Program-made: the position numbers and the translations under genes
Shown: piece by piece, positions 5,093 through 21,017 of the stretch
How the letters are laid out: each line of letters begins with the position of its first letter
Position numbering within the stretch: the first letter of the stretch is position 1
The notes under the pieces: model-generated
Told to the model about the DNA's origin: nothing
Seen by the model: the letters and a program-made list of their open reading frames with translations, nothing else
The model's database searches: none
Source: an uncultured Roseburia sp.
GTDB taxonomy: Bacteria; Bacillota; Clostridia; Lachnospirales; Lachnospiraceae
Direction of reading: 5' to 3'
Length of the DNA stretch: 24,057 bases
Assembly (NCBI GenBank): GCA_934307185.1
Contig: CAKRCJ010000006.1
Location: 1 to 24,057 of the forward strand

Positions 5093-5163
5093 GTAAAAAA
5101 CTCCTTTTTTTCTTTCATTTATTACCTATTCCATCATCATCTGATGTTTTATTTTATCTTCCA

Positions 5164-5880
5164 TTATTCTGATTTGCTTCCGTCCTTTTCGAATGCCTCC
5201 TGCTTTTTCTTCAAAATCATCTGCCTATTATAATTCAGATGCATAATCATTGCATATTTTGCTCCTGCACTATCGCCCTGCAAAATAGCATCTGTAATTG
5301 CACGATGGGTTTCTATTGTTTCATTCTTTAATTGACGATGGGTTATATTTACAAATGTGATAACTGCAGATTGAATAATTGGTACTAATTTCTCAATTAC
5401 ATTATTTTTACTGCATCTTGCTATACATGTATGAAATTCAACATCCTTTTGCAAATGATTTTCCCCTGCCAGATACAAATTTTCAACTTCATCACACAAT
5501 CTTTTCAATTCTTCCTTTTCTTCCACCGTAGCATGTTCACAAGCCAAAACTGCTATTTCTGGTTCCAACATCAATCTGACATCGCATAAATCTAATGCCA
5601 GTTCAAACTTATCCGTAAATTTGGACAAACCGAGTGGATCATCCTCCAAACGATTTGTTCCGATTACATATGTTCCGGAACCTCTGCGAACTTCTAAAAC
5701 CCTCTTGGATACAAGACTTTTTACCGTTTCCCGAATTGTACTTCTCCCCACGCCAAACAATTCCGCTAATTCAAATTCATTCGGTATTTTTTCTCCTATT
5801 TTCACCGGATGCTGCAATATATAATCCATCAGCTCTTCTTCCACCTGGGAGGCTAATAATTCCCGACTTTTCTTTTCCAT
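5164..5880 (-). CDS. GntR-family regulator, FadR/FCD subfamily
   Basis: 238 residues. The N-terminal winged helix-turn-helix (about 22-75) contains PNEFELAELFGVGRSTIRET and RRGSGTYVI. The C-terminal all-helical FCD ligand domain includes DVRLMLEPEIA, DVEFHTCIARCS, ETHRAITDAIL and MIMHLNYN, with the Asp/His residues that often bind a metal and an acidic ligand. Such regulators usually repress catabolic genes for sugar acids, amino acids or organic acids. The start has GGAG at good spacing. It is isolated from the ABC operon by the terminator at 6008-6048 and followed after about 70 bp by lspA with no clear terminator, so cotranscription is likely. Its target is unknown. Confidence 0.9.
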   Translation of the reverse strand: MEKKSRELLASQVEEELMDYILQHPVKIGEKIPNEFELAELFGVGRSTIRETVKSLVSKRVLEVRRGSGTYVIGTNRLEDDPLGLSKFTDKFELALDLCDVRLMLEPEIAVLACEHATVEEKEELKRLCDEVENLYLAGENHLQKDVEFHTCIARCSKNNVIEKLVPIIQSAVITFVNITHRQLKNETIETHRAITDAILQGDSAGAKYAMIMHLNYNRQMILKKKQEAFEKDGSKSE

Positions 5881-5967
5881 TTTCTACTCCACTGCCTGTG
5901 TGATAATATTTTTAATTTTCTCAATTTTCTGAAAAAATTATTTTCCCACGCTCCAATTTTTTTTTCA

Positions 5968-5973
5968 AGTGTA
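5968..5973 (-). promoter_or_regulatory. Candidate extended -10 of the GntR gene, within a partial palindrome
   Basis: Minus-strand TACACT is preceded by TGG (extended -10); the -35 is weak. The box sits in GTGGTACAC, whose outer bases are palindromic, loosely like FadR-subfamily operators, so autoregulation is possible. This is a weak call. Confidence 0.3.
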
Positions 5974-6007
5974 CCACATTTTCATCTTTATTGCATCTCT
6001 TCCACCC

Positions 6008-6048
6008 AAAAAAACAGGAAACCCTTAAAATCTTTTAAGAATTTCCTG
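6008..6048 (-). terminator. Rho-independent terminator of the sugar ABC operon
   Basis: On the minus strand CAGGAAA (6042-6048) pairs with TTTCCTG (6015-6021), with an inner CTTAAAA/TTTTAAG stem separated by a 2x2 mismatch, followed by a run of seven T (6008-6014). It lies 25 bp past the stop of the second permease gene. Confidence 0.85.
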
Positions 6049-6072
6049 CTCTTTATTTTTATATGATTTTTC

Positions 6073-6930
6073 CTAACCCTTCACACTTCCAAGTGCGACC
6101 CCCTGTACAATGTATCTTGATAAAAATAAATACACAATAATAACCGGGAAAATGGAGAATGCAATCATTACATAAACCTGACCCATATCAAACTTTAACC
6201 AGTCTGCTGCACGAAGCTGTGCAATCAGAATTGGTAATGTCTTTTTATTATCATTCTGTAAAATCAATGCCGGTGTAAAATAATTATTCCAGCTGCTTAC
6301 AAATCCAAAAATCGCCTGAACCGCAATTGCCGGCTTCATCAATGGAAGAACAATTGCATTAAATGTCCGAAATTCCCCGGAACCATCAATACGTGCTGCC
6401 TCAATCAATGATAATGGTAATGTACTCTCCATATACTGTTTCATATAAAAGAATGTAACCGGTGCCGCAACCGCCGGAATAATCAACGGTACAAATGAAT
6501 TCATAAGGTTCATTCCACGGACAAGTTTAATAAATCCCAGTGCCGTTACCTGTGTTGGAATCATCATAACAGCTAAAATAAATGCATAAATATATTTTTT
6601 CAGTTTAAAATCATAAGCATGAATTGCATACGCCGTCATCGTGGAAAAATAAACGGTTAATACTGCGCTTAAAGCAGAAACAATCAGGCTGTTTAACAGA
6701 CCGGATGCTACCGGAAGTGTTCCATGTACCAGATTATTCCAGTTGTCAAGCAAATGTGTACTCGGGATTGCGGTAAATCCTGACTGCAATTCACCATTTG
6801 ACCTGGTTGCATTAATGAATAATACATAAAACCAGAACAGGCAGAAAAAAGATATTATAATTAATACTACATATGCTATAAACCGTCTTGCATGCAGTCC
6901 AAGACCTTTATTAACTTCCTCTCTTCTCAT
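6073..6930 (-). CDS. Carbohydrate ABC transporter permease (MalG/CUT1 type)
   Basis: 285 residues with about six transmembrane segments; the first follows a basic cytoplasmic N-terminus. The EAA loop that docks the ATPase is EAARIDGSGEFRTF, followed by the usual LPLMKPAI. It should form the membrane channel with the neighbouring MalF-type permease and import an oligosaccharide delivered by the binding lipoprotein. The start follows AAAGGGG and lies 6 bp after the stop of the upstream permease gene, a tightly coupled pair. Last gene of the operon. Substrate is inferred from the surrounding beta-glucan genes. Confidence 0.93.
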   Translation of the reverse strand: MRREEVNKGLGLHARRFIAYVVLIIISFFCLFWFYVLFINATRSNGELQSGFTAIPSTHLLDNWNNLVHGTLPVASGLLNSLIVSALSAVLTVYFSTMTAYAIHAYDFKLKKYIYAFILAVMMIPTQVTALGFIKLVRGMNLMNSFVPLIIPAVAAPVTFFYMKQYMESTLPLSLIEAARIDGSGEFRTFNAIVLPLMKPAIAVQAIFGFVSSWNNYFTPALILQNDNKKTLPILIAQLRAADWLKFDMGQVYVMIAFSIFPVIIVYLFLSRYIVQGVALGSVKG

Positions 6931-6936
6931 GCCAGA

Positions 6937-7851
6937 TTACCCCTTTCTCTTATCGTTTCCTGTCACTTTAAATACAACCAGACTCAAAATACCTGTAATG
7001 ATAAACAATACGACGGAAACCGCACCTGCCATACCATAGTTCTTGCTGTATAAGTGGTTATTTAAAAACATGATTAATGTCATTGTAGAACGTACCGGAT
7101 TACCTGTACCATTTGTTAAAATCTGCGGAACATCAAATAACTGCAGTCCACCGATTAAAGAAGTAATCATTACATATACTAAAATCGGCCGGAGTAATGG
7201 CAGTGTAATTTTAAAGAATACCTGTGTAGATGTTGCACCATCTACTTCTGCTGCCTCAAATAATGATGTATCAATTCCCATCATTCCTGCCATCAGAAGA
7301 ATGGTTGTATTTCCAAACCACATTAGACAGTTCATAAGTGCAATCAGTCCCCTCGTGCTTCCAACATTTGACAGAAACTTATACGGTTCTGATATAATTC
7401 CCAATTGAAGCAGTAATGAATTGATGGGACCGCTTTCTGCAAATAATGTAAAAAATAACATGGAGAATGCAGAAGCCATAATTAAATTTGGTAAATAAAT
7501 AACCGTTTTAAAAAATCTGCTTCCCTTTAATTTCAGACGGACATCTGAAAACCATGCTCCAAGCAGTAATGAGAAAAAAATCTGCGGAACAAAACACATA
7601 ATCCATAAAATCATTGTGTTTTTTGCATAAATCCAAATATCCCCATCTTTAAAAAGTTTCACATAATTTTGTAATCCTACAAATTTCGGACCAACCTGTG
7701 TCAGCCCTGACATATAATTTTCAAAAAAGCTGTTATAAATGGTACTGAACAACGGAATGAGCTGGAATATGACATATACCACGATAAAAGGAATTAAAAA
7801 AATGTATCCCCATTTGTTATATCTGACCGCTTTTCCTCCACTTTTCTTCAT
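6937..7851 (-). CDS. Carbohydrate ABC transporter permease (MalF/UgpA type)
   Basis: 304 residues from the ATG at 7851, chosen because AAAGGAGG lies 10 bases upstream and the protein then starts MKKSGGK; an in-frame ATG at 7890 would add 13 residues but would translate through this SD. About six membrane segments follow (first at IFLIPFIVVYVIFQLIPL). The EAA motif is EAAEVDGATSTQVFFKI with LPLLRPIL after it. It pairs with the downstream MalG-type permease. It is 155 bp downstream of the binding-protein gene, with a strong stem-loop between them. No ATPase gene occurs in the operon. Confidence 0.93.
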   Translation of the reverse strand: MKKSGGKAVRYNKWGYIFLIPFIVVYVIFQLIPLFSTIYNSFFENYMSGLTQVGPKFVGLQNYVKLFKDGDIWIYAKNTMILWIMCFVPQIFFSLLLGAWFSDVRLKLKGSRFFKTVIYLPNLIMASAFSMLFFTLFAESGPINSLLLQLGIISEPYKFLSNVGSTRGLIALMNCLMWFGNTTILLMAGMMGIDTSLFEAAEVDGATSTQVFFKITLPLLRPILVYVMITSLIGGLQLFDVPQILTNGTGNPVRSTMTLIMFLNNHLYSKNYGMAGAVSVVLFIITGILSLVVFKVTGNDKRKG

Positions 7852-7915
7852 AACGCCTGTGCCTCCTTTATCCCGGTATATTGCATGCATTATAATTTAA
7901 AATCAAAGCTTCGAA

Positions 7916-7962
7916 GATTGTGAAAAATCAGCATTATATGCTATTGCCGTTTTTTCACAATC
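7916..7962 (-). other. Stem-loop between binding-protein and permease genes
   Basis: GATTGTGAAAAA (7916-7927) pairs perfectly with TTTTTCACAATC (7951-7962), and the loop contains a further AGCAT/ATGCT pairing. On the minus strand no U-run directly follows, so it is better read as a transcript-stabilising or partially terminating intercistronic hairpin. Such hairpins are commonly associated with high expression of the binding protein relative to its permeases. Confidence 0.7.
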
Positions 7963-8006
7963 AAATCCACTCTGTCTGGAATAATATAATTACCTGATAC
8001 TTTAAC

Positions 8007-9416
8007 TTAGTATGTAAGTTCCGGATATTTCTCTGTAATGCCTTTATAGAATAAATCAAGAGCCTCATCTAATGTTGCATTATCTTCAAAGTAGTTCTTC
8101 ATTGCTTTCTGGAATTCTTCGTTACATCCCTGGTCGTATGCAGAAAGATTGCTTAAATCAAGGCTATATACACCTGCGCAGTACATTTCAAGTGGGTTCT
8201 GTCCACCTAAAATCTTGCTGGAATAGCTTGTATCCTCTGCCATTTCTTCCATTACTATCTGATTGTTTACAAAATCATCATCCGCTACAACAATTTCTTT
8301 CATAACCTCTTCATCTGTTGTCATTGTAAGCATAATGTCTCTGATTGTTGCTACGTTATCTGTACCTGTTGCTGCTGCAATCCATGTACCACCCCAGAAA
8401 AATCCCTGTGGGCCTTCAGCTGCTCCCCAGCCGCCTTCGTATCCGATAGAACCTTCTGTATCAGCTGCCATAGAGAAGTTTACTAACCATGCAGGTCCAA
8501 AGTAACAAAATACTTTACCTTCCGGGAAGAAACCTTTTCTCCAGTCATCACTCCACATATCATGAACACCTGTCTCTCCAGCATCCACCATTTTCTTGGA
8601 GTCTTCTACCCATTTCATAATATTGTCATCAATGTTGACTTTTCCATCTTCTACCCATTTAGAAGTAACATTGTTGGAATATACACGATAGGTATCATTT
8701 GCGGAAGAAGTCATCTGATATCCGGCAGCTTTCATCTTCTCTGCTGTCGCATTAAATGTATCCCAGTCAGAAACATATTTCTGCACTTCAGCAGGATCAT
8801 CTGTTCCTAATACTTCTTTTGCTGCTTCACGATTGTAGAATAATACACCAGGACAGCCCTGCCATGAAACACCTTTTAATACGCCGTCAGAATCTGTTAC
8901 GATATCCTTTGTGTACTGATACTGTTCTTTTAAATCATCCGCTGTAATTCCAAGGTCGTTAAGTGCCATTGTATAATCTGTATCAACATATTTTAATGCA
9001 TAATCTGCTTCTAATAAAAATAAATCAATTTTATCATCTGCCGATGCAGAATCCTGTTCTAAAAGCGTCGCATCCAGGTTATTCTGATATGCACTATCAT
9101 CACTCGGCGTAATATTCCATTTTACTGTGATATCACCAATCTTACCTGTTGTAGCATCTACTTCTTCATATTTACTATAGTGAGCTTTTAAACGTCTCTG
9201 GAATTCATCATTCCAACAGTAAATATTTAATACCTTTCCTTCGTCTGCTGCAACTGTTTCATCTGCTGTACCAGCTTCCTCTGTTGCGGCTACTCCATTA
9301 TCCGCTGTTTCCTTTGCTGCATCATCCCCCGTTGAAGCTGCATCGCTTCCGCATCCTGCAAGCATGGATGCTGTCATTGCTGTAGCAAGTAATGCTGATA
9401 ACAATTTCTTTTTCAT
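8007..9416 (-). CDS. Sugar ABC transporter substrate-binding lipoprotein
   Basis: 469 residues from the ATG at 9416, chosen because GGGAGG sits about 8 bases upstream and the protein then begins with a normal lipoprotein signal (MKKKLLSALLATAMTASMLAGC, Cys22). An upstream ATG at 9446 would add ten charged residues. A Thr/Ala/Glu-rich linker (about 25-60) precedes the family-1 extracellular solute-binding fold (VLNIYCWNDEFQRR, later GCPGVLFYNREAAKEVLG, FPEGKVFCYFGPAW, FWGGTWIAAATG). It captures a sugar outside the membrane and delivers it to the two permeases. First gene of its operon, divergent from an AraC gene, with a shared operator-like sequence between them. Ligand inferred as a beta-gluco-oligosaccharide from the GH94 and GH16 neighbours. 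Confidence 0.92.
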   Translation of the reverse strand: MKKKLLSALLATAMTASMLAGCGSDAASTGDDAAKETADNGVAATEEAGTADETVAADEGKVLNIYCWNDEFQRRLKAHYSKYEEVDATTGKIGDITVKWNITPSDDSAYQNNLDATLLEQDSASADDKIDLFLLEADYALKYVDTDYTMALNDLGITADDLKEQYQYTKDIVTDSDGVLKGVSWQGCPGVLFYNREAAKEVLGTDDPAEVQKYVSDWDTFNATAEKMKAAGYQMTSSANDTYRVYSNNVTSKWVEDGKVNIDDNIMKWVEDSKKMVDAGETGVHDMWSDDWRKGFFPEGKVFCYFGPAWLVNFSMAADTEGSIGYEGGWGAAEGPQGFFWGGTWIAAATGTDNVATIRDIMLTMTTDEEVMKEIVVADDDFVNNQIVMEEMAEDTSYSSKILGGQNPLEMYCAGVYSLDLSNLSAYDQGCNEEFQKAMKNYFEDNATLDEALDLFYKGITEKYPELTY

Positions 9417-9480
9417 TTTTAGTTCCTCCCTTAATTTCTTGTTCATTTTGTAATTGTATTGTATGTTTTTTACTGCAATT

Positions 9481-9486
9481 CTTATA
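9481..9486 (-). promoter_or_regulatory. Candidate -10 box of the ABC operon
   Basis: Minus-strand TATAAG lies just downstream of the 27-bp operator-like element (9491-9517) with no good -35, the arrangement expected for a promoter needing an AraC-type activator at the -35 region. It would give a leader of about 55-60 bases. Confidence 0.4.
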
Positions 9487-9490
9487 TAAA

Positions 9491-9517
9491 ATTCATTGAC
9501 AAAATATCATATTCATG
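9491..9517 (-). promoter_or_regulatory. Operator-like element, copy 1 (ABC operon / AraC gene)
   Basis: The minus strand begins with CATGAATATGATATTT and ends GTCAATGAAT, giving two ATGAAT half-sites 20 bp apart, a spacing close to two helical turns and typical of AraC/XylS operators. It matches 23 of 27 bases upstream of the GH94 gene (15632-15658). It also covers the -35 and spacer of the AraC gene's own promoter (9496-9524), predicting autoregulation. Confidence 0.6.
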
Positions 9518-9524
9518 TTATGTT
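9496..9524 (+). promoter_or_regulatory. Sigma-A-like promoter of the AraC regulator
   Basis: Perfect TTGACA (9496-9501), 17-bp spacer, TATGTT (9519-9524) preceded by TGT (extended -10). It points to the ATG at 9586. The conserved operator-like element overlaps it. Confidence 0.65.
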
Positions 9525-9585
9525 TTGCATCATCAATATGCTATTATAAAAAAGTAATTTTTCACCTCAAAAAGGAGTTTTTATT

Positions 9586-10344
9586 ATGGATCTTTCCAGA
9601 GAATGGTATCGGAGTGAATTTGTAAATCAGGAAATGTTAGAACAACACCGTGTCATAGAAGCGGAATTTACTTTTTATGATGCAATTGCAAATGGAAATA
9701 TTGACTACATTGAAGAAAACTGTAAGAATAATACCTTTGTTAACCCTGACGGAATGGGAAAACTGTCAGAAGATAAGCTTCAGAATATCCGCTATCATTT
9801 TGTCGTCACAACCGCCATGATTACACGCTATTGCGTCCACGCAGGAATGGAACAGGAACAGGCTTACAGTCTCAGTGATTTTTATATTTTAAAAATGGAT
9901 AAATGTAAAACCATTGAACAAATCAGCAGGCTGCATGATACCATGTGCGTTGATTTATGCAACCGTATGAATGAATTGAAACGCCGGCATATTTTATCCA
10001 AACCAATTGTTCTTTGTATGGACTATATTTACAGCCATATCCATTACCGCATTACAATTAAAGAATTATCCGAATATCTGCATTTATCGGAAAGCTATTT
10101 ATCCAAGCTGTTTTTAAAAGAAATGGGGATTCCATTAAGTCATTATATTGTGGATTTAAAAATTGAAAAGTCAAAAAACCTTTTGCAATATTCCGATTAC
10201 AGCATCGTAGAAATTGCAAACTATTTTTCTTTTTCGTCCCAAAGTCATTTTATCCAGGTATTCCAGAAAAAAACCGGTATCACACCTTATAAATACCGTA
10301 TGATGCATTTCCGTTCAAACTGGGAAGAAGCATCAAAAAACTAA
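9586..10344 (+). CDS. AraC-family regulator, probable activator of the beta-glucan genes
   Basis: 252 residues. The C-terminal ~100 residues form the AraC double helix-turn-helix (ITIKELSEYLHLSESYLSKLFLKE, then SIVEIANYFSFSSQSHFIQVFQKK and TPYKYR). The N-terminal ~140 residues are all-helical (EAEFTFYDAIANGNIDYIEE, GKLSEDKLQNIRYHFVV, AYSLSDFYI), not a cupin, and resemble the sensor part of YSIRK-associated and other Firmicutes AraC proteins. AAAAGGAG precedes the start. It is divergent from the ABC operon, and an AraC-style direct repeat recurs upstream of the transporter and GH94 operons and, in part, the GH16 gene, so control of this locus is a reasonable inference. The ligand is unknown. 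Confidence 0.9.
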   Translation: MDLSREWYRSEFVNQEMLEQHRVIEAEFTFYDAIANGNIDYIEENCKNNTFVNPDGMGKLSEDKLQNIRYHFVVTTAMITRYCVHAGMEQEQAYSLSDFYILKMDKCKTIEQISRLHDTMCVDLCNRMNELKRRHILSKPIVLCMDYIYSHIHYRITIKELSEYLHLSESYLSKLFLKEMGIPLSHYIVDLKIEKSKNLLQYSDYSIVEIANYFSFSSQSHFIQVFQKKTGITPYKYRMMHFRSNWEEASKN

Positions 10345-10358
10345 GATTTCACAACGTT

Positions 10359-10396
10359 AAAAAATCGTCCGGACCATAAGATCTGAACGATTTTTT
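10359..10396. terminator. Bidirectional terminator between AraC and GH94 genes
   Basis: AAAAAATCGT (10359-10368) pairs with ACGATTTTTT (10387-10396), with a further CGGA/TCTG pairing inside. The A-run and T-run make it work for the AraC gene (plus) and for the converging GH94 operon (minus), whose stop is at 10407. Confidence 0.85.
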
Positions 10397-10406
10397 AGCT
10401 TCTTTT

Positions 10407-12821
10407 TTATGACATGATATATTCAATCTCTGTCACAGCTGTTAACATATCTTCCCTGACATATTTTCCTTCTGCCTCTACACCATTTACTATCATTTTT
10501 AAACATCCACTCTGTACATGCCCGCTGTTTTTCACAACAATATGTAAATGTTTTCCACGAAAATCTTTTTCAATTTCAAACTGTTCCCACTCTTTTGGAA
10601 CAGAAGGTTCAATACTAAGCCCGTCAAAATCAGGCCGCATGCCAAGAATACCCTCCACACAGCCTACCATTACGGTAGAAGCAGTTCCTGTCAGCCAGTG
10701 AACATGGGAACGTCCAAACTGTGGGCTTGCTTTTCCCTCTGTAAACTGCCCATAGCAATAAGGCTCTAACACACGTTTTTCTGCTATCGTATTCTGTGCT
10801 GCCGGTGAATTTTCCATAAAATAGGTAAATGCTTTATCACCATGCCCAAGCAATGCCTCTGCAAGAATCAGCCATCCCTGTGACTGTGAGAAAATACCAG
10901 CGTTTTCTTTTGTTCCTGCGTTATAAATTACGGCAAGTGCACCGTCAAACGCTTCCTTATGATATGGCGGATCCATTAAAACAGCACCAAACTGCGTATT
11001 TAATTTCTCATAAACATTATCCATGGCAAGCTTTGCCTGTTCTTTTGTTGCAAGTCCACTGATAACACTCCAGCTCTGTGGATTTAACCACATATTTGCC
11101 TCATTATCCGTTCTCTTTCCAATTGTCTGTCCTGCCTCTGTAAATCCACGGATAAAACGATCTTCATTCCAGCAGAACTCATTGATTACTTTACCCTGTG
11201 CCTGCTGTTTTTCCTCCAGATATCTTATGTATTCTGTATCCCCTTTATACTGTGCAAATTTTTCTAAAATTGTCATTGCATAATAGAACTGTAATGCAAC
11301 AAAGGTTGATTCTCCTGCTTTTCCAAGCCGTAAGCAGTCATTCCAGTCTGCATAAAGTCCAGCCGGCATTCCATGCACTCCAAGATGATTCATGGAAAAA
11401 TCAACGGCACGTTTTAAATGCTCATATACCGTTCCTTCCTCCTTGTCTGCAAATGGAATTACTTCATCTAAAAATGCCATATCTCCCGTCTCTGTAATGT
11501 ATTTATAAACGGTAGGAAACAGCCAGAGTGCATCATCTGCCCTATATTCTGGATGTCCTGTTTCATTCACATAAGAAGCGTCCTCCGGTGTATCTTCATG
11601 TCCCGGATTATGTGTAAATTTTACAAGCGGAAGACCTGCTCCATGATGCACCTGTGCCGAAAGCATGAAGCGAATTTTTTCTTTTGCCATCTCTGGTGCA
11701 AGATGAATCACACCCTGAATATCCTGTACCGTGTCACGATATCCATAGCCATTCCGAAGACCACAGTACACAAAGGATGCCGCACGCGACCATATAAATG
11801 TCATAAAACAGTTATATGCATTCCATGTGTTAATCATTGTGTCAAATTCAGGGCTTGGTGTTTTCACCTGGAAATGCTCTAATTTTGTGTGCCAGTAAGT
11901 TATTAATTCCTTTACTTCTTTTTCACATACCTCTTTCGGGTTTGCATAATGTGCACAGATTTGTTCTGCTTCGTCATTGTATTTCATTCCGAGAAGAAAT
12001 GCGATATTTTTAGTTTCACCCGGCTGCAATGTGATTTCTAAGGCAAGTGCCCCACAGCTGTTTTCATTATAGTTTAAGGAATTATCTAATTTTCCATTCA
12101 CCACACCAACCGGATTTGAATAATCATGATAGTGTCCAATAAAATTTTCTTTTGAACCACAGTAGGATGTTACCTTTTCTCCTGCTGCCCCGAAAAAACG
12201 TTCTACAACAATTTTGTTATCAACTTCTTTCCCGTCTTCCTGTCCGTCTAAATTTCCATGAATGAACTGGCGTATTCTGTTTTTTTCAAAAAGTGTTTTT
12301 GTAATAAACTGGGAATACTGTAAATTTACCTGATCCTGCTCATAATTGCTGTTATTTGTAAATTCTGCATATCCTGTAATTGTTAAATTTTTCACCTCGT
12401 CTGAATGATTTATTATATCCAAATCCCATACTTCATAAGATGCATTCAATGGCACATAATAAAGCGCTTCTGTCTGTATATTTTTATAATCTGCCCTGAT
12501 TTTTGTATAAGCAGTTCCATGATGACACTCACTCTTATACTCGTTTAAATCTTTTCCGACCGGCTGCCAGGATGCTGACCAGAAATCACTGTCCTTTTTG
12601 TCCTGAATATAAATATATCTTCCTGGGCGGTCAAAATCGTTAAATATATAACGAAGAATTCTTCCGTTTGCTCCTGATTTTGCAAAACTGTATCCGCCTG
12701 CATTATTGGAAATAATTGCACCGTATTCCGGGGAACCAAGGTAGTTTGCCCATGGTGCCGGTGTGTCCGGTCTTGTAATTACATATTCACGCTTTTTGTC
12801 ATCAAAATATCCATACTGCAT
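10407..12821 (-). CDS. GH94 phosphorylase, about 800-residue cellobiose/chitobiose phosphorylase type
   Basis: 804 residues. The N-terminus (YGYFDDKKREYVITRPDTPAPW, then NYLGSPEYGAIISNNAGGYSF) is the beta-sandwich start of cellobiose and chitobiose phosphorylases, and ADWNDCLRLG in the (alpha/alpha)6 barrel carries the catalytic Asp (Asp492 or Asp495). The enzyme is cytoplasmic and splits a beta-linked disaccharide with phosphate into glucose 1-phosphate and a second sugar. The glucose-site segment is NGYGYRDTVQDIQGV; from memory, characterised cellobiose phosphorylases have GFRDSNQD and chitobiose phosphorylase GYRDTAQD, so specificity should be left open. AAGGGAG precedes the start, 34 bp after the upstream GH94 gene. 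Cellobiose is plausible if the locus handles mixed-linkage glucan. Confidence 0.88.
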   Translation of the reverse strand: MQYGYFDDKKREYVITRPDTPAPWANYLGSPEYGAIISNNAGGYSFAKSGANGRILRYIFNDFDRPGRYIYIQDKKDSDFWSASWQPVGKDLNEYKSECHHGTAYTKIRADYKNIQTEALYYVPLNASYEVWDLDIINHSDEVKNLTITGYAEFTNNSNYEQDQVNLQYSQFITKTLFEKNRIRQFIHGNLDGQEDGKEVDNKIVVERFFGAAGEKVTSYCGSKENFIGHYHDYSNPVGVVNGKLDNSLNYNENSCGALALEITLQPGETKNIAFLLGMKYNDEAEQICAHYANPKEVCEKEVKELITYWHTKLEHFQVKTPSPEFDTMINTWNAYNCFMTFIWSRAASFVYCGLRNGYGYRDTVQDIQGVIHLAPEMAKEKIRFMLSAQVHHGAGLPLVKFTHNPGHEDTPEDASYVNETGHPEYRADDALWLFPTVYKYITETGDMAFLDEVIPFADKEEGTVYEHLKRAVDFSMNHLGVHGMPAGLYADWNDCLRLGKAGESTFVALQFYYAMTILEKFAQYKGDTEYIRYLEEKQQAQGKVINEFCWNEDRFIRGFTEAGQTIGKRTDNEANMWLNPQSWSVISGLATKEQAKLAMDNVYEKLNTQFGAVLMDPPYHKEAFDGALAVIYNAGTKENAGIFSQSQGWLILAEALLGHGDKAFTYFMENSPAAQNTIAEKRVLEPYCYGQFTEGKASPQFGRSHVHWLTGTASTVMVGCVEGILGMRPDFDGLSIEPSVPKEWEQFEIEKDFRGKHLHIVVKNSGHVQSGCLKMIVNGVEAEGKYVREDMLTAVTEIEYIMS

Positions 12822-12855
12822 GTTTTTTCTCCCTTTTTTCTTTTATTTCTGTTTC

Positions 12856-15549
12856 TTAGATCATTACATCAATCTCACAATGTCCCGTGGAAAGCTCTAT
12901 CAGTGATTTACGGGAAATTTTTGCTTTTCCGTCTTTGACTGTCACTTCTACATCCTTTACATTTACCTCATTTATTTTATATTCGCCAAAATCTTTTTTC
13001 TGTGGGTTATGGTAACGGACCGTAATTTTCTTTCCGGCAAACTCCATACATAACGCAGCATCGCCATTCTCATCAAACTGCTCTTTCACAAGCTTTGGTT
13101 CTATGATTAAATCTCCAAATTCGCCACGGACACCAAACACTTCTGTAATCATTGTAAGCATATACCAGCTCGCTGCGCCAGTCAGATAAGCGTACATTCC
13201 ACGTCCTTGTGCATTAAAATATTCCGGAATTCCCGGATAAATTTTACTTGTGGAAAAGTTAAGTGCCGTATCCGCCAATGTCTGTATTGCTTTATATCCT
13301 TCTCTTACAAATCCTCTCTGATACAGTGCATTTGCATACATGACGGTCATATGTGAGAATACCGCTCCGTTCTCTTTCTCGCCATAGGCAAACCCGAACA
13401 TTCTTCCCAAATCAAATTTTATCTCATGAAAATCGGTATTTAAGCGATAGCCTCCAACCTCCTTCTGATAAAGATATTTGTCTGTACTCCTGCAAATTGC
13501 TGCTACCTTTTCATTATCCGCAGTTTTGCTCATAACGGAAAATACCTGTCCAGTAAGCATCATCCGCACATTATCGCCAAATTTTCCTTCAACAGCCCTC
13601 CCATGATTATCATAATAGCTGTTAAACCATGCATTTCCTTCTCCATCACTTATCCATTCATTTTGTCGGATATATTCCATCATCCAGTCTGCTTTTTCCT
13701 TTAAGCTTTCTGCAAGCTCTGTAACAGAAACCTCTGTTGTCCTTCCGCTTACATTATATCTGCACTCTTTTGTATAATTAAGTAAAAGCTCCTGTTTTGC
13801 TTTGATGTCTGTATAAATTGTACGTTCTGCCAAAAGCAGTGGCTTCATCTCTTCCAAAACAGAAATTTCATTGATGCCAAGTCTGTTTTTTAACGCCAGA
13901 AGATATTCTGCAAGCTGTTTTAAATTGCCCGCATAAGCACAGGTGAATGCAACACTTTCTCCTTTTTCCTCCGCCATATCTAATGCATCATTCCAGTCAG
14001 CTCCCCTAAGTCTTATTATATTGTGTTCTCCAACCTCATAAAAGGCACATAAATTCTGTAACAATAAATGCTCTAATACACTTCCGTAATAGATTTCACC
14101 CATTTTTGTTTTCTGCTGCTTTCCATAGGCATCGTTCCAGTTCTCATCAATTCCGGTTCCTCTTTCCACCTGACGGTCTTTGAAATAAGGAACTTTTTTC
14201 ATAAGGATTTCCATATCACCGGTCTGATTAATGTAAAGCTTTGTTGTAAGAAATGGCCAGAAGCCATGGTCCATCCAGACACGGGTAATATTATTTCTGT
14301 CCGCAATGAATTCCCCCTGTTTTTCCCCGATGATTGTTGCATTGCTTCCATCCATACGGACGCCACAGTAATTATCTAATATCATCTGTCCAACACCGGA
14401 TGGATTCATGAAAAGAAGTGCCAAGCAGTCCTGCCAAAGGTCACGCCAGCCTCGTCCACCTTTTCCATAATCATGATGAGGGAGGAAAGAACAGCCATAT
14501 ATTCTTCTCAAAACCGGCTGGAAACTGACCCAGCGCATAAAATTATCAAATTCTTCCCTGCCAGTATAATATCTGACATTTACTTTTTCCTGCCAGTAAT
14601 TTTTTACTTTCTTTAAAGCAGTATCCACTTCTTCTTTCGTCCGATACTCTGCTATAATCTGTGCAATTTCATCTTCGTTATCAGTCACACCAAGAAGCAC
14701 TGTATAAGAAGCTCTTTCTTCCGGCTGTAATGTGATTTCTGTAAAACGGAAGGCTCCGGCTGCTTCTTTTCCCGCTGCCACATATCCTTCCTTCACACCT
14801 TCTTTCTTCTCACGCACTGCCTGTGGATTGGTATAACTTCCTCCTTCTCCAAGAAAAAGCTCTACGGTCGGATAAAAGCCAACCGGGTTTTCTCCTTTTC
14901 CGGAAACGCCCATTACATAATAAATCTGTTCATTTTTCTTATGTCCACGCTCATCAAAAGACATTGTCGGTTTGACACATACACCATTTTCTGTAACCGT
15001 AATATGATGAAGTAAGGATGTAACATGTCTGTGGTCCCTGATATTATCTGCACTGCGTCCATAAATTGGAATTGCTGCAACTGGTGTTATTACTTTTTCT
15101 TTTCCAGATTTATTACAGATTTCCACCTGCATAATCTCGACTGCATGTTCTGCCGGAGCAAAAGAAGTTACTTTCGCTTCCAGCCCATATTTTTCAGAGG
15201 TTCTTGTTACAGTCTGCCACATAAAGCCAGCCACAAGACTGCTTTTTTCCTGATTTCCGGTAAATTTAAAAAAATCATTTTCTGCTGACGCTCCTGTCGC
15301 GGACCAAAATCCCTCTCCTTTGATTTGACACCAAAAATTTCTTGTTGAACGGTTATTATGCAGATTTTCTGCACTTACCGGTTCCATTACAAATGTATTC
15401 TGGTCTTTTTTGGTATCTCCTCCAAAGTCCGGGGTAACTGCTCCCTTTAGCCCTGACTCATTCGCAACAGGTAAATACAGATAACTATAGTTTTCTGCAT
15501 TTTCGATTGTAAAGGTTCCATCTTTATCTAAAAAATGTATTGCTTCCAT
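12856..15549 (-). CDS. GH94 phosphorylase, about 900-residue type; probable laminaribiose phosphorylase
   Basis: 897 residues from the ATG at 15549. That start has AAAGGAG four bases upstream and begins MEAIHFLDKDGTF, where recognisable GH94 sequence starts. An in-frame ATG at 15603 with GGAGAG would add 18 basic residues, but a promoter inferred from the operator position would start the RNA within that SD. LRGADWNDALDMAEEKGES holds the catalytic Asp (518 or 521), and GGRGWRDLWQDCLALL is the sugar-site segment. Length matches the long GH94 form that includes Paenibacillus laminaribiose phosphorylase (recalled, not searched). With a laminarinase-type GH16 next door, phosphorolysis of laminaribiose to glucose 1-phosphate and glucose is the best guess. 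Cytoplasmic; cotranscribed with the 804-residue GH94. Confidence 0.85.
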   Translation of the reverse strand: MEAIHFLDKDGTFTIENAENYSYLYLPVANESGLKGAVTPDFGGDTKKDQNTFVMEPVSAENLHNNRSTRNFWCQIKGEGFWSATGASAENDFFKFTGNQEKSSLVAGFMWQTVTRTSEKYGLEAKVTSFAPAEHAVEIMQVEICNKSGKEKVITPVAAIPIYGRSADNIRDHRHVTSLLHHITVTENGVCVKPTMSFDERGHKKNEQIYYVMGVSGKGENPVGFYPTVELFLGEGGSYTNPQAVREKKEGVKEGYVAAGKEAAGAFRFTEITLQPEERASYTVLLGVTDNEDEIAQIIAEYRTKEEVDTALKKVKNYWQEKVNVRYYTGREEFDNFMRWVSFQPVLRRIYGCSFLPHHDYGKGGRGWRDLWQDCLALLFMNPSGVGQMILDNYCGVRMDGSNATIIGEKQGEFIADRNNITRVWMDHGFWPFLTTKLYINQTGDMEILMKKVPYFKDRQVERGTGIDENWNDAYGKQQKTKMGEIYYGSVLEHLLLQNLCAFYEVGEHNIIRLRGADWNDALDMAEEKGESVAFTCAYAGNLKQLAEYLLALKNRLGINEISVLEEMKPLLLAERTIYTDIKAKQELLLNYTKECRYNVSGRTTEVSVTELAESLKEKADWMMEYIRQNEWISDGEGNAWFNSYYDNHGRAVEGKFGDNVRMMLTGQVFSVMSKTADNEKVAAICRSTDKYLYQKEVGGYRLNTDFHEIKFDLGRMFGFAYGEKENGAVFSHMTVMYANALYQRGFVREGYKAIQTLADTALNFSTSKIYPGIPEYFNAQGRGMYAYLTGAASWYMLTMITEVFGVRGEFGDLIIEPKLVKEQFDENGDAALCMEFAGKKITVRYHNPQKKDFGEYKINEVNVKDVEVTVKDGKAKISRKSLIELSTGHCEIDVMI

Positions 15550-15621
15550 AGCTCTCCTTTTCTCAAATCCTTTAACTTTGATGTTTTTTACTGTTCTTAT
15601 CATAACGAAATCTCTCCATTT

Positions 15622-15686
15622 AAAAAATCAGATTCATTAACTAAATGTCATTTTCATGAACCATTCAAAAATGAATCTGATTTTTT
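15622..15686 (-). terminator. Terminator of the GH16 gene, with the GH94 operator inside
   Basis: A perfect 17-bp stem: AAAAAATCAGATTCATT (15622-15638) with AATGAATCTGATTTTTT (15670-15686), around a 31-base loop. On the minus strand it ends in six T, 13 bp after the GH16 stop. The loop and the 3' arm hold the operator-like element that precedes the GH94 operon. Confidence 0.8.
15632..15658 (-). promoter_or_regulatory. Operator-like element, copy 2 (GH94 operon)
   Basis: Minus strand begins CATGAAAATGACATTT and ends GTTAATGAAT; 23/27 identical to the element before the ABC operon (9491-9517), keeping both half-sites and the 20-bp spacing. The second half-site is also part of the 3' arm of the GH16 terminator. 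Confidence 0.6.
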
Positions 15687-15699
15687 GACCGGAGCATAT

Positions 15700-18600
15700 T
15701 TACTTCACAATTTCTGTTGCTGAAATTTCTTCTACAGTAATTGTATGTGCATCAAGTGCTTCTGCACCTTCTGGTGTTCCAAGTAATAGCACAAACTCTC
15801 CTGTCGTCGTTGTTTCTTCATTCCATGTTGTATTTACAACATACTCTTTTGTTTCATTTGCTTTTAATGTAATGTCATCATAAAATCCTTTATAACTGTT
15901 GGATGGGTCTCTAAAGCCAAGCTTAAAAATCCGGTCTATGCTGGATGTGATTTTAAACTTAATTTCATATTCTTTTCCATTTATAAGAGAAAGCTGCTGG
16001 TTTGCAACCTGAATATCCCAGTTATTTGTTCCAGAATTATTAAGTGTAAAGTCAAATTTTCCATCCTGTGCCGTATATGTTCCAATTTCTCCACCTGCAA
16101 TATTGCCCCAAAGTCCGGTTAATATATTCTCACCTGCCGGCTTGGATGGTTCAATTACCGGTGCATCAATTTTATCTAGCGAAATATTATCAAAACAAAT
16201 TCTATGCTGCATATCAATAGCATCTCCACCAACTGCACCAAGTGTAAAGGAAAGAATTGCTTTTTCATCTGTATCATTTACCATTTTGAAATCGCAGATG
16301 ACTGTTTCATACTCATTCGCTCCTGCAAGTTCAATTATTTTGCTTCCCGTGTACGGTGTCCAGTCATTATCAGCAGAGCCATCTCTCTGGATTGCATACA
16401 TAATCTTACGTACAAGATTTGATTTCACATCAAATTTTAATCTGTACCACTGGTCTTTTTCCAAAACAACATTATTCTGTTTTAACTGAATATACCAGTC
16501 TGTATTTCCAGTATTGTTAATTGTAATATCAGCAGCATTATCTTCCGTCTGGCTGTCCACAACAATGGATGCCATTCCGTCTGCATACTGATAAAATTCG
16601 TAACCGGAAAGTCCTGCATTGAAGGAACCATTTTTTATCAGGGATGCTTCTACAAGCATTACACTGTCAAGATAAATTTCTCCCTCTCCTGTCATAGTAA
16701 ACACAAGATTTTTGTCTGTATAACATTCATTTTTAATTTTTAATCTGTAAGTCTGGTTCTCATCTGTCAATGTATAACTTTCTTCTGCTCCTGCTGCGTT
16801 CACTTTTAAAGATGCAGTTCCCCTTGCCTTAAAGGACAGCTCATATTCTGTACCATCCGTAAAAGCAAGCCCTGTCTGTACGACAGTAAGCGGATTTTCT
16901 GCTGTATGGTTTACTACTGCATGAAGTTCTCTTTCATTATTTATATTTGTAACTGAAACCGCATTGCTGTCAGATACTTCCCAGAATTTTAAGCGGTTTG
17001 CACCTTCCTGGAATTCTCCATTATATACAAGACTTCCATTTGCAAGTACCGTCTTTTCCTCCACTTCATTTGGATTTGCATCTTTTGTCATTTTCACTGC
17101 AACATTTCTGATTTCAACTGCTGCTGTTGAGCCTGCAGCTCCCATGTTATACTCAAGCCTTCCATTTGCATCATTATCTTCTGTCATTTTAAATGAATAG
17201 GTATATTTCTTCCAATCCGTTGTAAGGTCTGCATTCTCACTCATATATGCCATATAAGAACGGTCTGGTGCTTTTACGGCTGTATTCATTTTTCTGTTTT
17301 CAGAAGCTTTTGCTTCATAAGATACCTCGTAAATTGCACCTTTTTTTAATGGGATTGCTGCCTGTACAAGCTGGACACTGTAGTCTACTGTTCCGGCATC
17401 CTCTGTTGTGATTTTCATCACATTATCTGCGATTTCTGCTGTTGCAACACCGCCATTTGCTGTTAAGAATTTCCAGTCTTTATCATCTGTCAAATCTTCT
17501 TTTACCGAAAAGTCACCATTGTTGATATAGTTTCCATTCTCATCCGGAGCTCTTAAAACAACATCTTTTACCGGTTTTTCCACATTCTCATCATAGCTGT
17601 CTTTCTGATATACCCTGACATAATCAACAGCTAACTGTGCTCTCTCATCAAACGGTGTAGTGTCATCCACATTTCCTACCCAGGAGCCACCAACTGCAAC
17701 ATTTAAAATCATATAAAATGGCTGGTCAAATGGTGCAGGATACGCAACAGTTCCTACATTTTTTGTTGTGGAATACCAGTCGTTTTCTTCATGATACAAA
17801 ATACCATCCACATACCATTTAATAGAACCCGGTTCCCATTCACATGCAAATGTATGATATTCATCTGCAAAATTTCCTTTTTCTAATATTTTTGTTCCCT
17901 GACTCTCTGCATGAGGTTCACCATAGTGAATTGTTCCATAAAGCTTATCTGTCTGCTGTCCCATAACCTCCATGATGTCAATCTCACCACATTTTGGCCA
18001 CTGACCATACAAATTTTCGTTTGTTGGCATCATCCAGAATGCTGGCAGATAACCATTTCCTTGTGGTACTTTTGCCCTACATTCAAAGTAGCCATATTTG
18101 AAATCTTTTTTGCCCTGTGTGTTTACTCTTCCAGATGTATAGGATACTTTTCCATCTTTTTCTGTCTTCACCGGCTGAATAATTAAATTTCCATCTTTTA
18201 TAAAAATATTTTCTTCACTATCCACATAAGCCTGAAGTTCACTGTTTACCCAGCCAGGATCATGAAGTTCTACATTCCATACGCTTCTATCCAATGTATC
18301 TTCGTCGAAATTTTCTTCCCACACAAGATGATATACCGGATCTTTTTGTGGATCCATTTTTTCGTCTGTACCCGGTGTTGCATCCGGTTTCTTATCTTCG
18401 CCTGTATCCGGTGTCACATCCGATTTTTTATCTTCGTCTGTATCCGGTGTCACATCCGGTTTCTTATCTTCATCTGTATCCGGTGTTGCATCCGGTTTCT
18501 TATCTTCGTCTGCACCCGGTGTTGCATCCGGTTTCTTATCTTCATCTGCACCCGGTGTCACATCCGGTTTCTTATCTTCGTCTGTATCCGGTGTCACATC

Positions 18601-19197
18601 CGGTTTTTTATCTTCGTCTGTATCCGGTGTCACATCCGGTTTTTTATCTTCGTCTGTATCCGGTGTCACATCCGGTTTTTTATTTTCATCTGTATCCGGT
18701 GTTGCATCCGGTTTCTTATCTTCGTCTGTATCCGGTTTCTTATTTTCATCTAAATTTGATGTTACATCCGATTTTCTGCCCGAATCCTGCTGATTATTAT
18801 TCACATCCAGTTCTTTATTCGTATCTGATGATTTTGCAACAAGTGTTCCCTGTACTTTTTTATTTTTCTGTACTTTCTTATCTGCTTTTTTCCCACTGTT
18901 TTTGTCTGTAGAAACTTTCTTTTCCTTTTGTTCAATAACAGTTGCATCATCCTCTGATACTTTAAATGTATCTTCTGTCTGCTCAGTCTCATTATTTACT
19001 ATTTCCGTAGTTTCTCTTGTTTCCGTCTGCTCTGTTTCATTTGCGTTTTTCATATTACCAGTCTGCTCTGTTTTTCCACATCCCATAGAAAAACTCATCA
19101 TACACGCTAACATTACCACCGTAAATCGCAGTTTAAATCTGCCTTTTCCATTTTTCATTCTCATTTTTTTTAGCAAAATAAAAACCTCCCTTTTCAT
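15700..19197 (-). CDS. Surface-anchored GH16 endo-beta-1,3-glucanase (laminarinase type) with CBM-like modules
   Basis: 1165 residues counted from the ATG at 19197. A basic n-region, hydrophobic core and lipobox SMGC (Cys40) make it a lipoprotein. A charged Thr/Lys/Glu-rich stretch (41-157) and ten 12-residue repeats DEDKKPDxTPDT (158-277) form a long spacer. The GH16 domain spans about 286-532 with GEIDIMEVMG: Glu405 nucleophile, Asp407, Glu410 acid/base; the extra Met of the beta-bulge is laminarinase-like rather than lichenase-like. Four beta-sandwich modules resembling CBM4/CBM16 follow (about 558-710, 726-855, 857-1010, 1020-1165). It should cut beta-1,3-glucan at the cell surface. Start uncertain: AAGGGAGG lies inside the first codons, eight bases before a TTG at 19176, which is the better-supported start. 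Confidence 0.92.
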   Translation of the reverse strand: MKREVFILLKKMRMKNGKGRFKLRFTVVMLACMMSFSMGCGKTEQTGNMKNANETEQTETRETTEIVNNETEQTEDTFKVSEDDATVIEQKEKKVSTDKNSGKKADKKVQKNKKVQGTLVAKSSDTNKELDVNNNQQDSGRKSDVTSNLDENKKPDTDEDKKPDATPDTDENKKPDVTPDTDEDKKPDVTPDTDEDKKPDVTPDTDEDKKPDVTPGADEDKKPDATPGADEDKKPDATPDTDEDKKPDVTPDTDEDKKSDVTPDTGEDKKPDATPGTDEKMDPQKDPVYHLVWEENFDEDTLDRSVWNVELHDPGWVNSELQAYVDSEENIFIKDGNLIIQPVKTEKDGKVSYTSGRVNTQGKKDFKYGYFECRAKVPQGNGYLPAFWMMPTNENLYGQWPKCGEIDIMEVMGQQTDKLYGTIHYGEPHAESQGTKILEKGNFADEYHTFACEWEPGSIKWYVDGILYHEENDWYSTTKNVGTVAYPAPFDQPFYMILNVAVGGSWVGNVDDTTPFDERAQLAVDYVRVYQKDSYDENVEKPVKDVVLRAPDENGNYINNGDFSVKEDLTDDKDWKFLTANGGVATAEIADNVMKITTEDAGTVDYSVQLVQAAIPLKKGAIYEVSYEAKASENRKMNTAVKAPDRSYMAYMSENADLTTDWKKYTYSFKMTEDNDANGRLEYNMGAAGSTAAVEIRNVAVKMTKDANPNEVEEKTVLANGSLVYNGEFQEGANRLKFWEVSDSNAVSVTNINNERELHAVVNHTAENPLTVVQTGLAFTDGTEYELSFKARGTASLKVNAAGAEESYTLTDENQTYRLKIKNECYTDKNLVFTMTGEGEIYLDSVMLVEASLIKNGSFNAGLSGYEFYQYADGMASIVVDSQTEDNAADITINNTGNTDWYIQLKQNNVVLEKDQWYRLKFDVKSNLVRKIMYAIQRDGSADNDWTPYTGSKIIELAGANEYETVICDFKMVNDTDEKAILSFTLGAVGGDAIDMQHRICFDNISLDKIDAPVIEPSKPAGENILTGLWGNIAGGEIGTYTAQDGKFDFTLNNSGTNNWDIQVANQQLSLINGKEYEIKFKITSSIDRIFKLGFRDPSNSYKGFYDDITLKANETKEYVVNTTWNEETTTTGEFVLLLGTPEGAEALDAHTITVEEISATEIVK
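18367..18726 (-). repeat. Ten 36-bp tandem repeats encoding the DEDKKPDxTPDT linker
   Basis: Ten consecutive in-frame 36-bp units (residues 158-277 of the GH16 protein), differing at a few positions (Val/Ala after Asp; PDT/PGA/PGT ends; one Asn for Asp, one Ser for Pro, one Gly for Asp). The unit is rich in Asp, Lys, Pro and Thr, fitting an extended cell-wall-spanning spacer. Copy number is likely to vary between strains by slippage or recombination. The repeat also opens long but spurious plus-strand frames. Confidence 0.95.
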
Positions 19198-19230
19198 TTG
19201 ATATTCTTATCCTATCAAACAAAAAGGGAG
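19186..19230 (-). terminator. Hydrogenase-operon terminator overlapping the GH16 ribosome binding site
   Basis: CTCCCTTTT (minus strand, 19222-19230) pairs with AAAAGGGAG (19186-19194), and TTTGATA (19213-19219) with TATCAAA (19197-19203), joined by two G-U wobbles to give a continuous 18-bp stem with a 9-base loop. TTTTTATTTT follows after one G, so it should terminate hydrogenase transcripts. Its 3' arm contains the AAGGGAGG ribosome binding site and the ATG (19197) of the GH16 gene, so read-through RNA would also have a masked SD. Confidence 0.75.
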
Positions 19231-19237
19231 ATTAAAA

Positions 19238-19249
19238 ATCATATTCATG
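19238..19249 (-). promoter_or_regulatory. Operator-like element, copy 3 (GH16 gene), core half-site only
   Basis: Minus-strand CATGAATATGAT is identical over 12 bases to the element upstream of the ABC operon. The second half-site 20 bp away is not conserved here. It is placed just upstream of the leader hairpin; spacing as in the ABC operon would put the RNA start near 19205, within the hairpin, leaving only its 3' arm and a free SD. Confidence 0.5.
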
Positions 19250-19283
19250 CACTATATATCAAATGCATGTCCTCATTATTTTT

Positions 19284-21017
19284 CTACTGCGGCATCTCCC
19301 ACGCGTTATGGTCTGTATGTAACAGCATATGTGCTTTGTGGGAAAGCGGTTTTTCCATGTAGTCCTGATATAATTTTAACACATCCGGATTTTCATGGGA
19401 GAAACGGATTTTTGCATTTTTATCGAGGAAATAAAGATTTGCCCCACGGACCGATGCAAGCTCCTCGCCGTCATGGATTGGCTGTCCACCGCCGCCGACG
19501 CAGCCGCCCGGACATGCCATGACTTCTACAAAATCATAATGCTCTTCCCCTCTTTCGATGCGTTCTAACAGTCTTCTTGTATTCGCAAGCCCACAGACAA
19601 CTGCAACAGAAACCTCATTATCCGCCAGCATAATTTTTGCCTCTTTTACACCGGTTTCCATATCATTTCTTACAATCTGGAATGCATCTGCATCTGGATT
19701 TTTTGCATTCACAAGATAATATGCTGAACGGATTGCTGCCTCCATCACGCCGCCGGTCGAACCGAAAATCACACCTGCCCCGGTTCCTTCCTTCATCAGG
19801 GAGTCACACTCTGCATTCTCTAATGTCTCCGGCAAAATATGTGCTGAACGAATCATACGCTCTAACTCTCTTGTCGTAAGAACTGCATCAATATCATGCC
19901 CTGCATATTCCTCATGGAACAGCTCCATTTTGGCTTCGCCTTTTTTCGCCAGACAAGGCATAATGGAAACTGTATAAATATTTTCAGGCTCCACCCCGAT
20001 GCTCTGTGCAAAATACGTTTTCATGACTGCACCAAACATCTGCTGAGGACTTTTTGCAGTGGAAAGCTGCGGTACCATATGCGGGAACTGGCTTTTTACA
20101 AAACGAACCCAGCCCGGACAGCAGGAGGTGAACATCGGACGGACTTTTGTCCCGCCCTTTTTCAGACGCTCCAAAAATTCATTTCCCTCCTCCATAATCG
20201 TTAAATCTGCGGAAAATGCGGTGTCAAACACATAATCTACTCCCATTTTCTTTAACGCATGTACGATTTTTCCAACTGTTGCATCCTCACGCTTCATGCC
20301 AAGCGCCTCTCCCCATGCAGTACGCACCGCCGGGGCAATCTGTGCAACGACAACTTTTTTCGTGTCAGCAATTGCCTCCCACACTTTTTCCGTATCATCA
20401 CGCTCTCTGAGCGCACCAACCGGGCAATGGGTAATGCACTGTCCACAGAGCGCGCAGTCTGCGTTATCAATTTTCCGATTGCCGGACACGCCGACTGTTG
20501 TTCTTGAACCTGTTCCTGTCACGTCCCAGATTTTAAGTCCCTGCACTTTGTCACACACCTGGATACAGCGCATACATTTGATACATTTGTGTGCATCACG
20601 GATAAGTGGGAAATTTTTATCCCATGGCATTGTCTCAAAACGTTCCTTATATGGAAGGTCGATGATATTCAAATCATTTGCCACTGTCTGCAAAGTACAG
20701 TTTCCGCTGCGCACACAGGTCGCACATTTACAGTCGTGCTGGGACAAAATAAGCTGGATCGTCTTTCTTCTGTCCATGCGCACTTTTGGGCTGTTCGTAT
20801 GAATGACCATTCCCTCTTTTGCAACATTGTTGCAGGAGGTGATAAGCTTGTCCATTCCCTCTAATTCCACCACACAGACTCGACAGGCTGCAATCTCATT
20901 GATGCCCTTTAAATAGCAGAGCTTTGGAATTGGAATGCCGTTCTTTTTCGCTGCTTCCATAATTGTCGTACCCTCCGGCACGGAAATCATTTTATCGTCA
21001 ATTGTAAGATTTACCAT
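19284..21017 (-). CDS. [FeFe] hydrogenase, catalytic subunit (CpI-like domain order)
   Basis: 577 residues. Reversibly reduces protons to H2 in the cytoplasm, an electron sink in fermentation. Domains in order: plant-type [2Fe-2S] (Cys34, 45, 48, 62); His-ligated [4Fe-4S] (His94, Cys98, 101, 107); two [4Fe-4S] (Cys145/148/151/155 and 188/191/194/198); H-cluster domain with TSCCPGW (Cys299 proton path, Cys300), MPCLAKKGE (Cys355) and MACPGGCVGGG (Cys502, 506); and a small-subunit-like tail (HKAHMLLHT). Numbering is almost collinear with Clostridium pasteurianum CpI. All ligands are present. The start overlaps the upstream gene's stop by 7 bp (ATGGTAA), with AAAGGAGG 12 bases before, so translation is coupled. 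HndD is the alternative family name. Confidence 0.95.
   Translation of the reverse strand: MVNLTIDDKMISVPEGTTIMEAAKKNGIPIPKLCYLKGINEIAACRVCVVELEGMDKLITSCNNVAKEGMVIHTNSPKVRMDRRKTIQLILSQHDCKCATCVRSGNCTLQTVANDLNIIDLPYKERFETMPWDKNFPLIRDAHKCIKCMRCIQVCDKVQGLKIWDVTGTGSRTTVGVSGNRKIDNADCALCGQCITHCPVGALRERDDTEKVWEAIADTKKVVVAQIAPAVRTAWGEALGMKREDATVGKIVHALKKMGVDYVFDTAFSADLTIMEEGNEFLERLKKGGTKVRPMFTSCCPGWVRFVKSQFPHMVPQLSTAKSPQQMFGAVMKTYFAQSIGVEPENIYTVSIMPCLAKKGEAKMELFHEEYAGHDIDAVLTTRELERMIRSAHILPETLENAECDSLMKEGTGAGVIFGSTGGVMEAAIRSAYYLVNAKNPDADAFQIVRNDMETGVKEAKIMLADNEVSVAVVCGLANTRRLLERIERGEEHYDFVEVMACPGGCVGGGGQPIHDGEELASVRGANLYFLDKNAKIRFSHENPDVLKLYQDYMEKPLSHKAHMLLHTDHNAWEMPQ

Follow-up and report, generated by a model that had tools for sequence, protein, structure and literature searches.

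An element shared by three gene sets of one locus, with which a gut-type bacterium probably feeds on beta-glucan, is, judged by its sequence, a real operator of the ordinary AraC/XylS kind. It recurs in the window, the stretch of 24,057 nucleotides from an uncultured Roseburia sp. that was analysed here. We consider it highly probable that the three sites are operators of AraC1, a candidate regulator encoded in the same locus, which would use them to activate three targets by a class II mechanism and to limit its own synthesis, probably with a beta-glucan oligosaccharide as the inducer. What the DNA itself shows is an operator of defined geometry that is conserved and co-occurs with AraC1; binding by AraC1, activation, autorepression and the inducer we infer.

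The locus and its three operators

The genes and sites are listed in Table 1. Because of the database relatives of GH94a, GH94b and GH16, beta-glucan is a fair name for the locus. For the product of GH94a, the closest solved relative was 8bou (1404 bits), an entry named diacetylchitobiose phosphorylase that is probably BpGH94MLG, the GH94 enzyme of Blautia producta. The substrates of BpGH94MLG are cello- and mixed-linkage oligosaccharides; laminaribiose is not one of them (PMC10318527). The GH94b product is laminaribiose-phosphorylase-like, matching 6ggy with 990 bits. A Pfam scan of the solute-binding protein (SBP) gave no match, and its identity comes from a PDB match together with its position among the importer genes. 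A second AraC gene (AraC2, with a cupin domain) and a GntR/FCD gene adjoin the locus, at 3229-4113 and 5164-5880. Upstream of GH16 (19284-22843), two genes overlap by 7 bases: one encodes an [FeFe] hydrogenase similar to the NCBI model for group A6, the other combines a NuoF-type part with an NAD(P)-binding oxidoreductase part.

Table 1. Genes, operators and predicted promoter elements of the locus (positions in the window)
Feature	Position	Strand	Remark
ABC importer: two permeases and solute-binding protein	6073..9446	-	target 1
Operator 1, weaker repeat (B), extending to the -35 region, before ABC importer operon	9481..9497	-	sequence; +20 repeat rule
Operator 1, repeat A, before ABC importer operon	9501..9517	-	matrix score 24.8
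-10 TACAAT at +54, predicted importer operon promoter	9458..9463	-	spacing rule
Predicted AraC1 promoter, TTGACA-17-TATGTT, across operator 1	9496..9524	+	
AraC1, candidate regulator, 252 aa	9586..10344	+	
GH94 operon	10407..15603 (as ORFs)	-	target 2
GH94 gene nearest to 8bou (GH94a)	10407-12821	-	
Laminaribiose-phosphorylase-like gene (GH94b)	ORF 12856-15603	-	likely start 15549
-10 TATGAT at +54, predicted GH94 operon promoter	15599..15604	-	spacing rule
Operator 2, repeat B, before GH94 operon	15622..15638	-	doubles as 3' arm of the hairpin after GH16
Operator 2, repeat A, before GH94 operon	15642..15658	-	
GH16 laminarinase-like gene with CBM4_9 stretches	15700..19197	-	target 3
-10 TAGGAT at +55, predicted GH16 promoter	19209..19214	-	spacing rule
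Operator 3, repeat B, before GH16	19233..19249	-	contains CATGAATATGAT
Operator 3, repeat A, before GH16	19253..19269	-	

The original prediction had matched a 27-bp element before the importer operon with one before the GH94 operon, and the two (9491-9517 and 15632-15658) are indeed identical at 23 of 27 bases. Both full copies carry ATGAA twice, with starts 20 bp apart and pointing at the downstream genes, as had been claimed. The match exceeds chance: when the three leader regions were simulated 2000 times with a first-order Markov model, 23/27 was never reached by any pair (the maximum was 22), and a triple with at least 20 and at least 20 matching bases was seen once. The element is real, but a length of 27 bp cuts it short: in relatives, a repeat unit of 17 bp occurs twice at a period of 20 bp, which makes 37 bp in all.

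A 12-base core, CATGAATATGAT, had been proposed to mark the site before GH16 as well. It has two exact occurrences in the window, at 9506-9517 and 19238-19249, each on the minus strand, but the copies are out of register, falling in repeat 1 before the ABC operon and in repeat 2 before GH16. The in-register third copy, at 19243-19269, matches site 1 at 21 and site 2 at 20 of 27 bases and is the best remaining window match for both. This full copy was overlooked because the 12-mer sits in the second repeat there.

The ORF of GH94b starts at 15603, inside the predicted -10 hexamer. An in-frame ATG at 15549, preceded by GGAGAG and 109 bases from the operator start (the median in relatives is 107), is likely the real start.

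Geometry and conservation in relatives

For comparison, 80 loci were retrieved by alignment of AraC1 and its homologues (80 of 124 found were kept; 52-79% identical); AraC1 served to select these loci, and genomes that are related do not count as independent. In relatives, a 17-bp unit (CATGAATNTGATATTTT) is directly repeated at a distance of 20 bp; the second copy touches the -35 region, and the -10 is 54 bp from the first. Leaders were profiled with a 17-base matrix derived from the repeat A sequences of 87 leader contexts. This matrix averaged 0.24 at +20, where the profile mean was -20.7 (sd 4.5), and a -10 matrix averaged 3.04 at +54, where the profile mean was -8.0 (sd 2.5). By a rule of A at position 2, T at position 6 and at least four of the six bases of TATAAT, 75 of 82 promoters have a -10-like hexamer at +53 to +55 (SBP, 34/34; GH94b, 19/20; GH94a, 14/15; GH16, 8/13); at three neighbouring offsets further on, the rates were 0.10, 0.16, 0.17 and 0.26, respectively. 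The consensus of the 82 promoters reads CATGAaT.TGATATTTTT..AAt.AAT.T.aTATAt, followed by 18 loosely conserved bases and TAtaaT.

AraC/XylS-type sites are asymmetric, about 17 bp long and often arranged as direct repeats about two turns apart. In sequence pattern, the element is such a site, a 17-bp repeat with a 20-bp period, weakly so before GH94a. The second repeat scored above zero in 20/34 SBP, 15/20 GH94b, 5/13 GH16 and 1/15 GH94a promoters, and in less than 1% at other offsets. The element extends into the -35 region and keeps a constant spacing to the -10, which is the layout of a class II activator-dependent promoter; GH16 taken alone gives the 8/13 noted above. Five loci with a more distant AraC1 (46-49%; L143, L151, L156, L157 and L158, in G054, G160, G146, G058 and G247) have two operators, back to back between GH94b and SBP, with their own -10 in those checked.

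We measured specificity with a matrix made from the three window sites only, scoring the 250 bp before leader genes in the 80 loci with a threshold of at least 10. The motif had been predicted to be kept before orthologous operons, and it was found before 80 of 128 leaders of the four classes (SBP, 34/42; GH16, 14/23; GH94b, 19/36; GH94a, 13/27) versus 12 of 322 other leader genes. Operon-internal genes gave 5/66 for the four classes and 0/290 for the rest, while permB leaders gave 1/19, permC 0/5, AraC2 0/4 and AraC1 leaders, read on their own strand, 0/61. Across whole loci, there were 93 matches (window included), versus 1 to 6 for three column-permuted matrices.

A search of 26 relatives' genomes for the 17-base core with at most one mismatch returned 88 matches, versus 5 for the reversed pattern. 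The expectation that the motif would not be scattered at random held for exact matches, all 23 of which lie at an AraC1 locus (one of them 0.7 kb outside the locus stretch taken). One-mismatch matches are looser: 48 of 65 lie elsewhere, more than the reversed control gave in total. At least one match with no more than one mismatch fell inside the AraC1 locus in 21 of the 26 genomes and none in the other five. When eight of the 48 outlying one-mismatch matches were inspected, six were in long open frames and none of the eight had a -10. By comparison, a -10 was present in 20 of 21 in-locus matches inspected in this search and in 17 of 17 strict in-locus matches from the larger survey described below; the in-locus check left out L093 and L150, which are too near contig ends.

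On the minus strand, positions 15622-15686 form a strong hairpin after GH16 (fold of 15618-15700, -25.6 kcal/mol, z -5.3), so placed that a terminator-like structure and an operator occupy the same bases. That repeat B of site 2 is an arm of this hairpin would suit a reading in which the likeness of the sites is due to chance, or is a by-product of A+T-rich leaders and the GH16 transcript-end hairpin. We regard this as extremely improbable, given that no simulation reached the observed match, that the motif is kept before the same genes in relatives and that the hairpin was absent from all 30 relatives' GH94b leaders examined. As far as sequence can, the simulations and the conservation before the same genes refute it.

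AraC1 as the candidate regulator

AraC1 matches HTH_18 and HTH_AraC above cutoff and has two helix-turn-helix motifs in its C-terminal part; by both profile and model, this DNA-binding domain aligns with those of AraC, MarA and Rob. A Pfam scan found no AraC_binding or cupin domain in the N-terminal part, and AraC2 was matched in the same scan. In the predicted structure, the N-terminal half is all-helical (mean pLDDT 80 and pTM 0.49 for the whole model). An operator-like sequence within the AraC1 gene (9874-9900, and in relatives) is the coding sequence of a conserved SDFYILKMD and a trap for motif searches.

The motif had been predicted to co-occur with this regulator. In a survey of 299 genomes from the family of G001, AraC1 was matched in 41 (E <= 1e-60) and GH94 in 49 (E <= 1e-250), and a strict form of the motif gave 24 matches in 18 genomes (reversed control, 1). 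Motif and AraC1 did co-occur, in 13 of 41 genomes with an AraC1 match versus 5 of 258 without (Fisher 5e-9), counts that serve as a guide, given the common descent of the genomes and the many sites that escape the strict pattern, above all in the closest relatives. Among GH94 genomes, the strict motif was present in 11 of 31 with AraC1 and 1 of 18 without; that lone genome, lacking an AraC1 match at the cutoff, has an AraC1 piece at a contig end (L124). Sorted by AraC1 identity, 12 of 24 genomes at 47% or above had the motif versus 1 of 17 at 41-46%, and only 1 of 6 at 60% or above had it because the strict pattern suits more distant loci better. Seventeen of the 24 strict matches are at an AraC1, SBP or GH94b gene (L147 is 4 kb from AraC1), six are outside such loci, and the remaining one is at a contig end; four of the six have a -10-like hexamer.

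One alternative is that the shared operator is real but bound by a regulator encoded elsewhere, for example a second AraC-type protein, with AraC1 a mere neighbour. We think this unlikely. It could draw on the 14 of 81 AraC1 genes that have no operator within 300 bp upstream, among them that of Anaerocolumna (L008), whose product is 73% identical with the same recognition helices. Also among the 14 are L010, L017, L023 and L027, where the upstream neighbour is co-directional, and L020 and L070, where the locus starts close to the gene. Moreover, G186 has an operator-like site before GH94 (L115, score 22.3) with no AraC1 match at the cutoff, and AraC-type paralogues, 41-46% identical, occur in other genomes. 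Against this alternative stand the co-occurrence over the 299 genomes and the constant place of the AraC1 promoter relative to the operator. In addition, the operator stays with AraC1 when other neighbours differ, still adjoining it where the neighbour is GH3 or GH5 (L022, L025 and L024). Eight GH94 loci with no AraC1 in their 1.5-kb flanks (L135-L142, 63-67% identity) gave no site at score 11. The GntR of the window had no match in the 80 related loci, and AraC2 matches there were mostly the AraC1 gene itself. AraC1 is the best candidate for the protein that binds the operators, and since the operator is kept near the same regulator and at a fixed promoter distance in many related species, it is very probably an AraC1 binding site.

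In the proposed mechanism, two AraC1 subunits would occupy the two direct 17-bp repeats, whose 20-bp separation is about two helical turns. The promoters have poor -35 boxes, and the repeat nearer to them extends to the -35 region, so that bound AraC1 would recruit RNA polymerase there (class II activation) and switch on all three targets: the importer, both GH94 phosphorylases and the GH16 glucanase. The inducer would probably be an imported beta-glucan oligosaccharide. Operator 1, lying between the AraC1 gene and the importer genes, spans the AraC1 core promoter, and because of this overlap AraC1 likely limits its own synthesis. In 51 of 65 operator-bearing upstream regions (81 examined), the AraC1 -10 lies at a constant place relative to the operator, just outside the motif.

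Repression would be expected at a promoter covered in this way, which raises the alternative that AraC1 binds all of its sites as a repressor and is released from the DNA on sugar binding. We judge this very unlikely. The poor -35 boxes, the end of repeat B in the -35 region and the fixed spacing (75/82) form the layout of an activator, and most AraC-type sugar regulators are activators.

Known systems and the wider family

The gene for E. coli AraC is divergent from a target and self-limited, and its product has an arabinose-binding cupin barrel as N-terminal domain. AraC1 resembles it as an AraC-family protein with paired operators before a target promoter and with a gene that is likewise divergent from a target and likely self-limited, and differs in the N-terminal part, which is helical in our model, with the cupin barrel absent. 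At E. coli araBAD, two adjacent operators (araI1/araI2) are described, of which the promoter-near one recruits polymerase (PMC4760080). The DNA-binding domain of AraC1 is also related to those of the class II activators RamA, MarA and SoxS. These are mostly single-domain proteins acting at single sites, unlike AraC1, with its N-terminal domain and tandem site. The class II complex of RamA has been solved (7bef).

The locus resembles the mixed-linkage beta-glucan locus bp1313-bp1318 of Blautia producta, which has genes for GH16, GH94, an AraC-type regulator and an ABC importer (PMC10318527). The window brings the same four together, the gene set of a Gram-positive mixed-linkage beta-glucan utilization locus, and, unlike the Blautia locus, adds a laminaribiose-phosphorylase-like gene. 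On barley beta-glucan, transcripts of the Blautia enzymes and importer go up about 4- to 5-fold and the AraC gene changes little (PMC10318527). This small change is compatible with autorepression of AraC1, by analogy, though Bp1315 may be a regulator of another type: it and the 252-aa AraC1 may not be orthologues, because Bp1315 is described as membrane-bound (PMC10318527). In the main text of that report, the words operator, promoter and operon are absent.

Operators are also located upstream of, or right at the start of, genes for GH3, GH5 and periplasmic sugar-binding proteins (L022:9919, L025:9897, L024:9890, L042:16786 and L033:17144), which are candidates for further regulon members. On the minus strand at L072:6726, a high-scoring operator precedes the gene of a methyl-accepting chemotaxis receptor (4764-6455) by 270 bases, a hint that the same control may extend to movement toward beta-glucan. 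More tentatively, it is possible that AraC1 heads a beta-glucan regulon across many Lachnospiraceae, in which one module would activate one gene and limit AraC1, the partner gene would differ from species to species (importer, phosphorylase, GH16, GH3, GH5 and, at one locus, the chemotaxis receptor), and an all-helical domain, of a kind undescribed for sugar-sensing AraC proteins, would sense the signal.

Such loci are known from their enzymes; in the open-licence literature searched, we found neither their control side nor an earlier description of this operator. The present analysis provides an exact and testable operator and promoter layout for a probable beta-glucan regulator of many Lachnospiraceae. 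With it, beta-glucan genes outside the locus can be searched for from DNA alone, and AraC1 and its promoters become a candidate sensor-promoter pair for work on dietary fibre.
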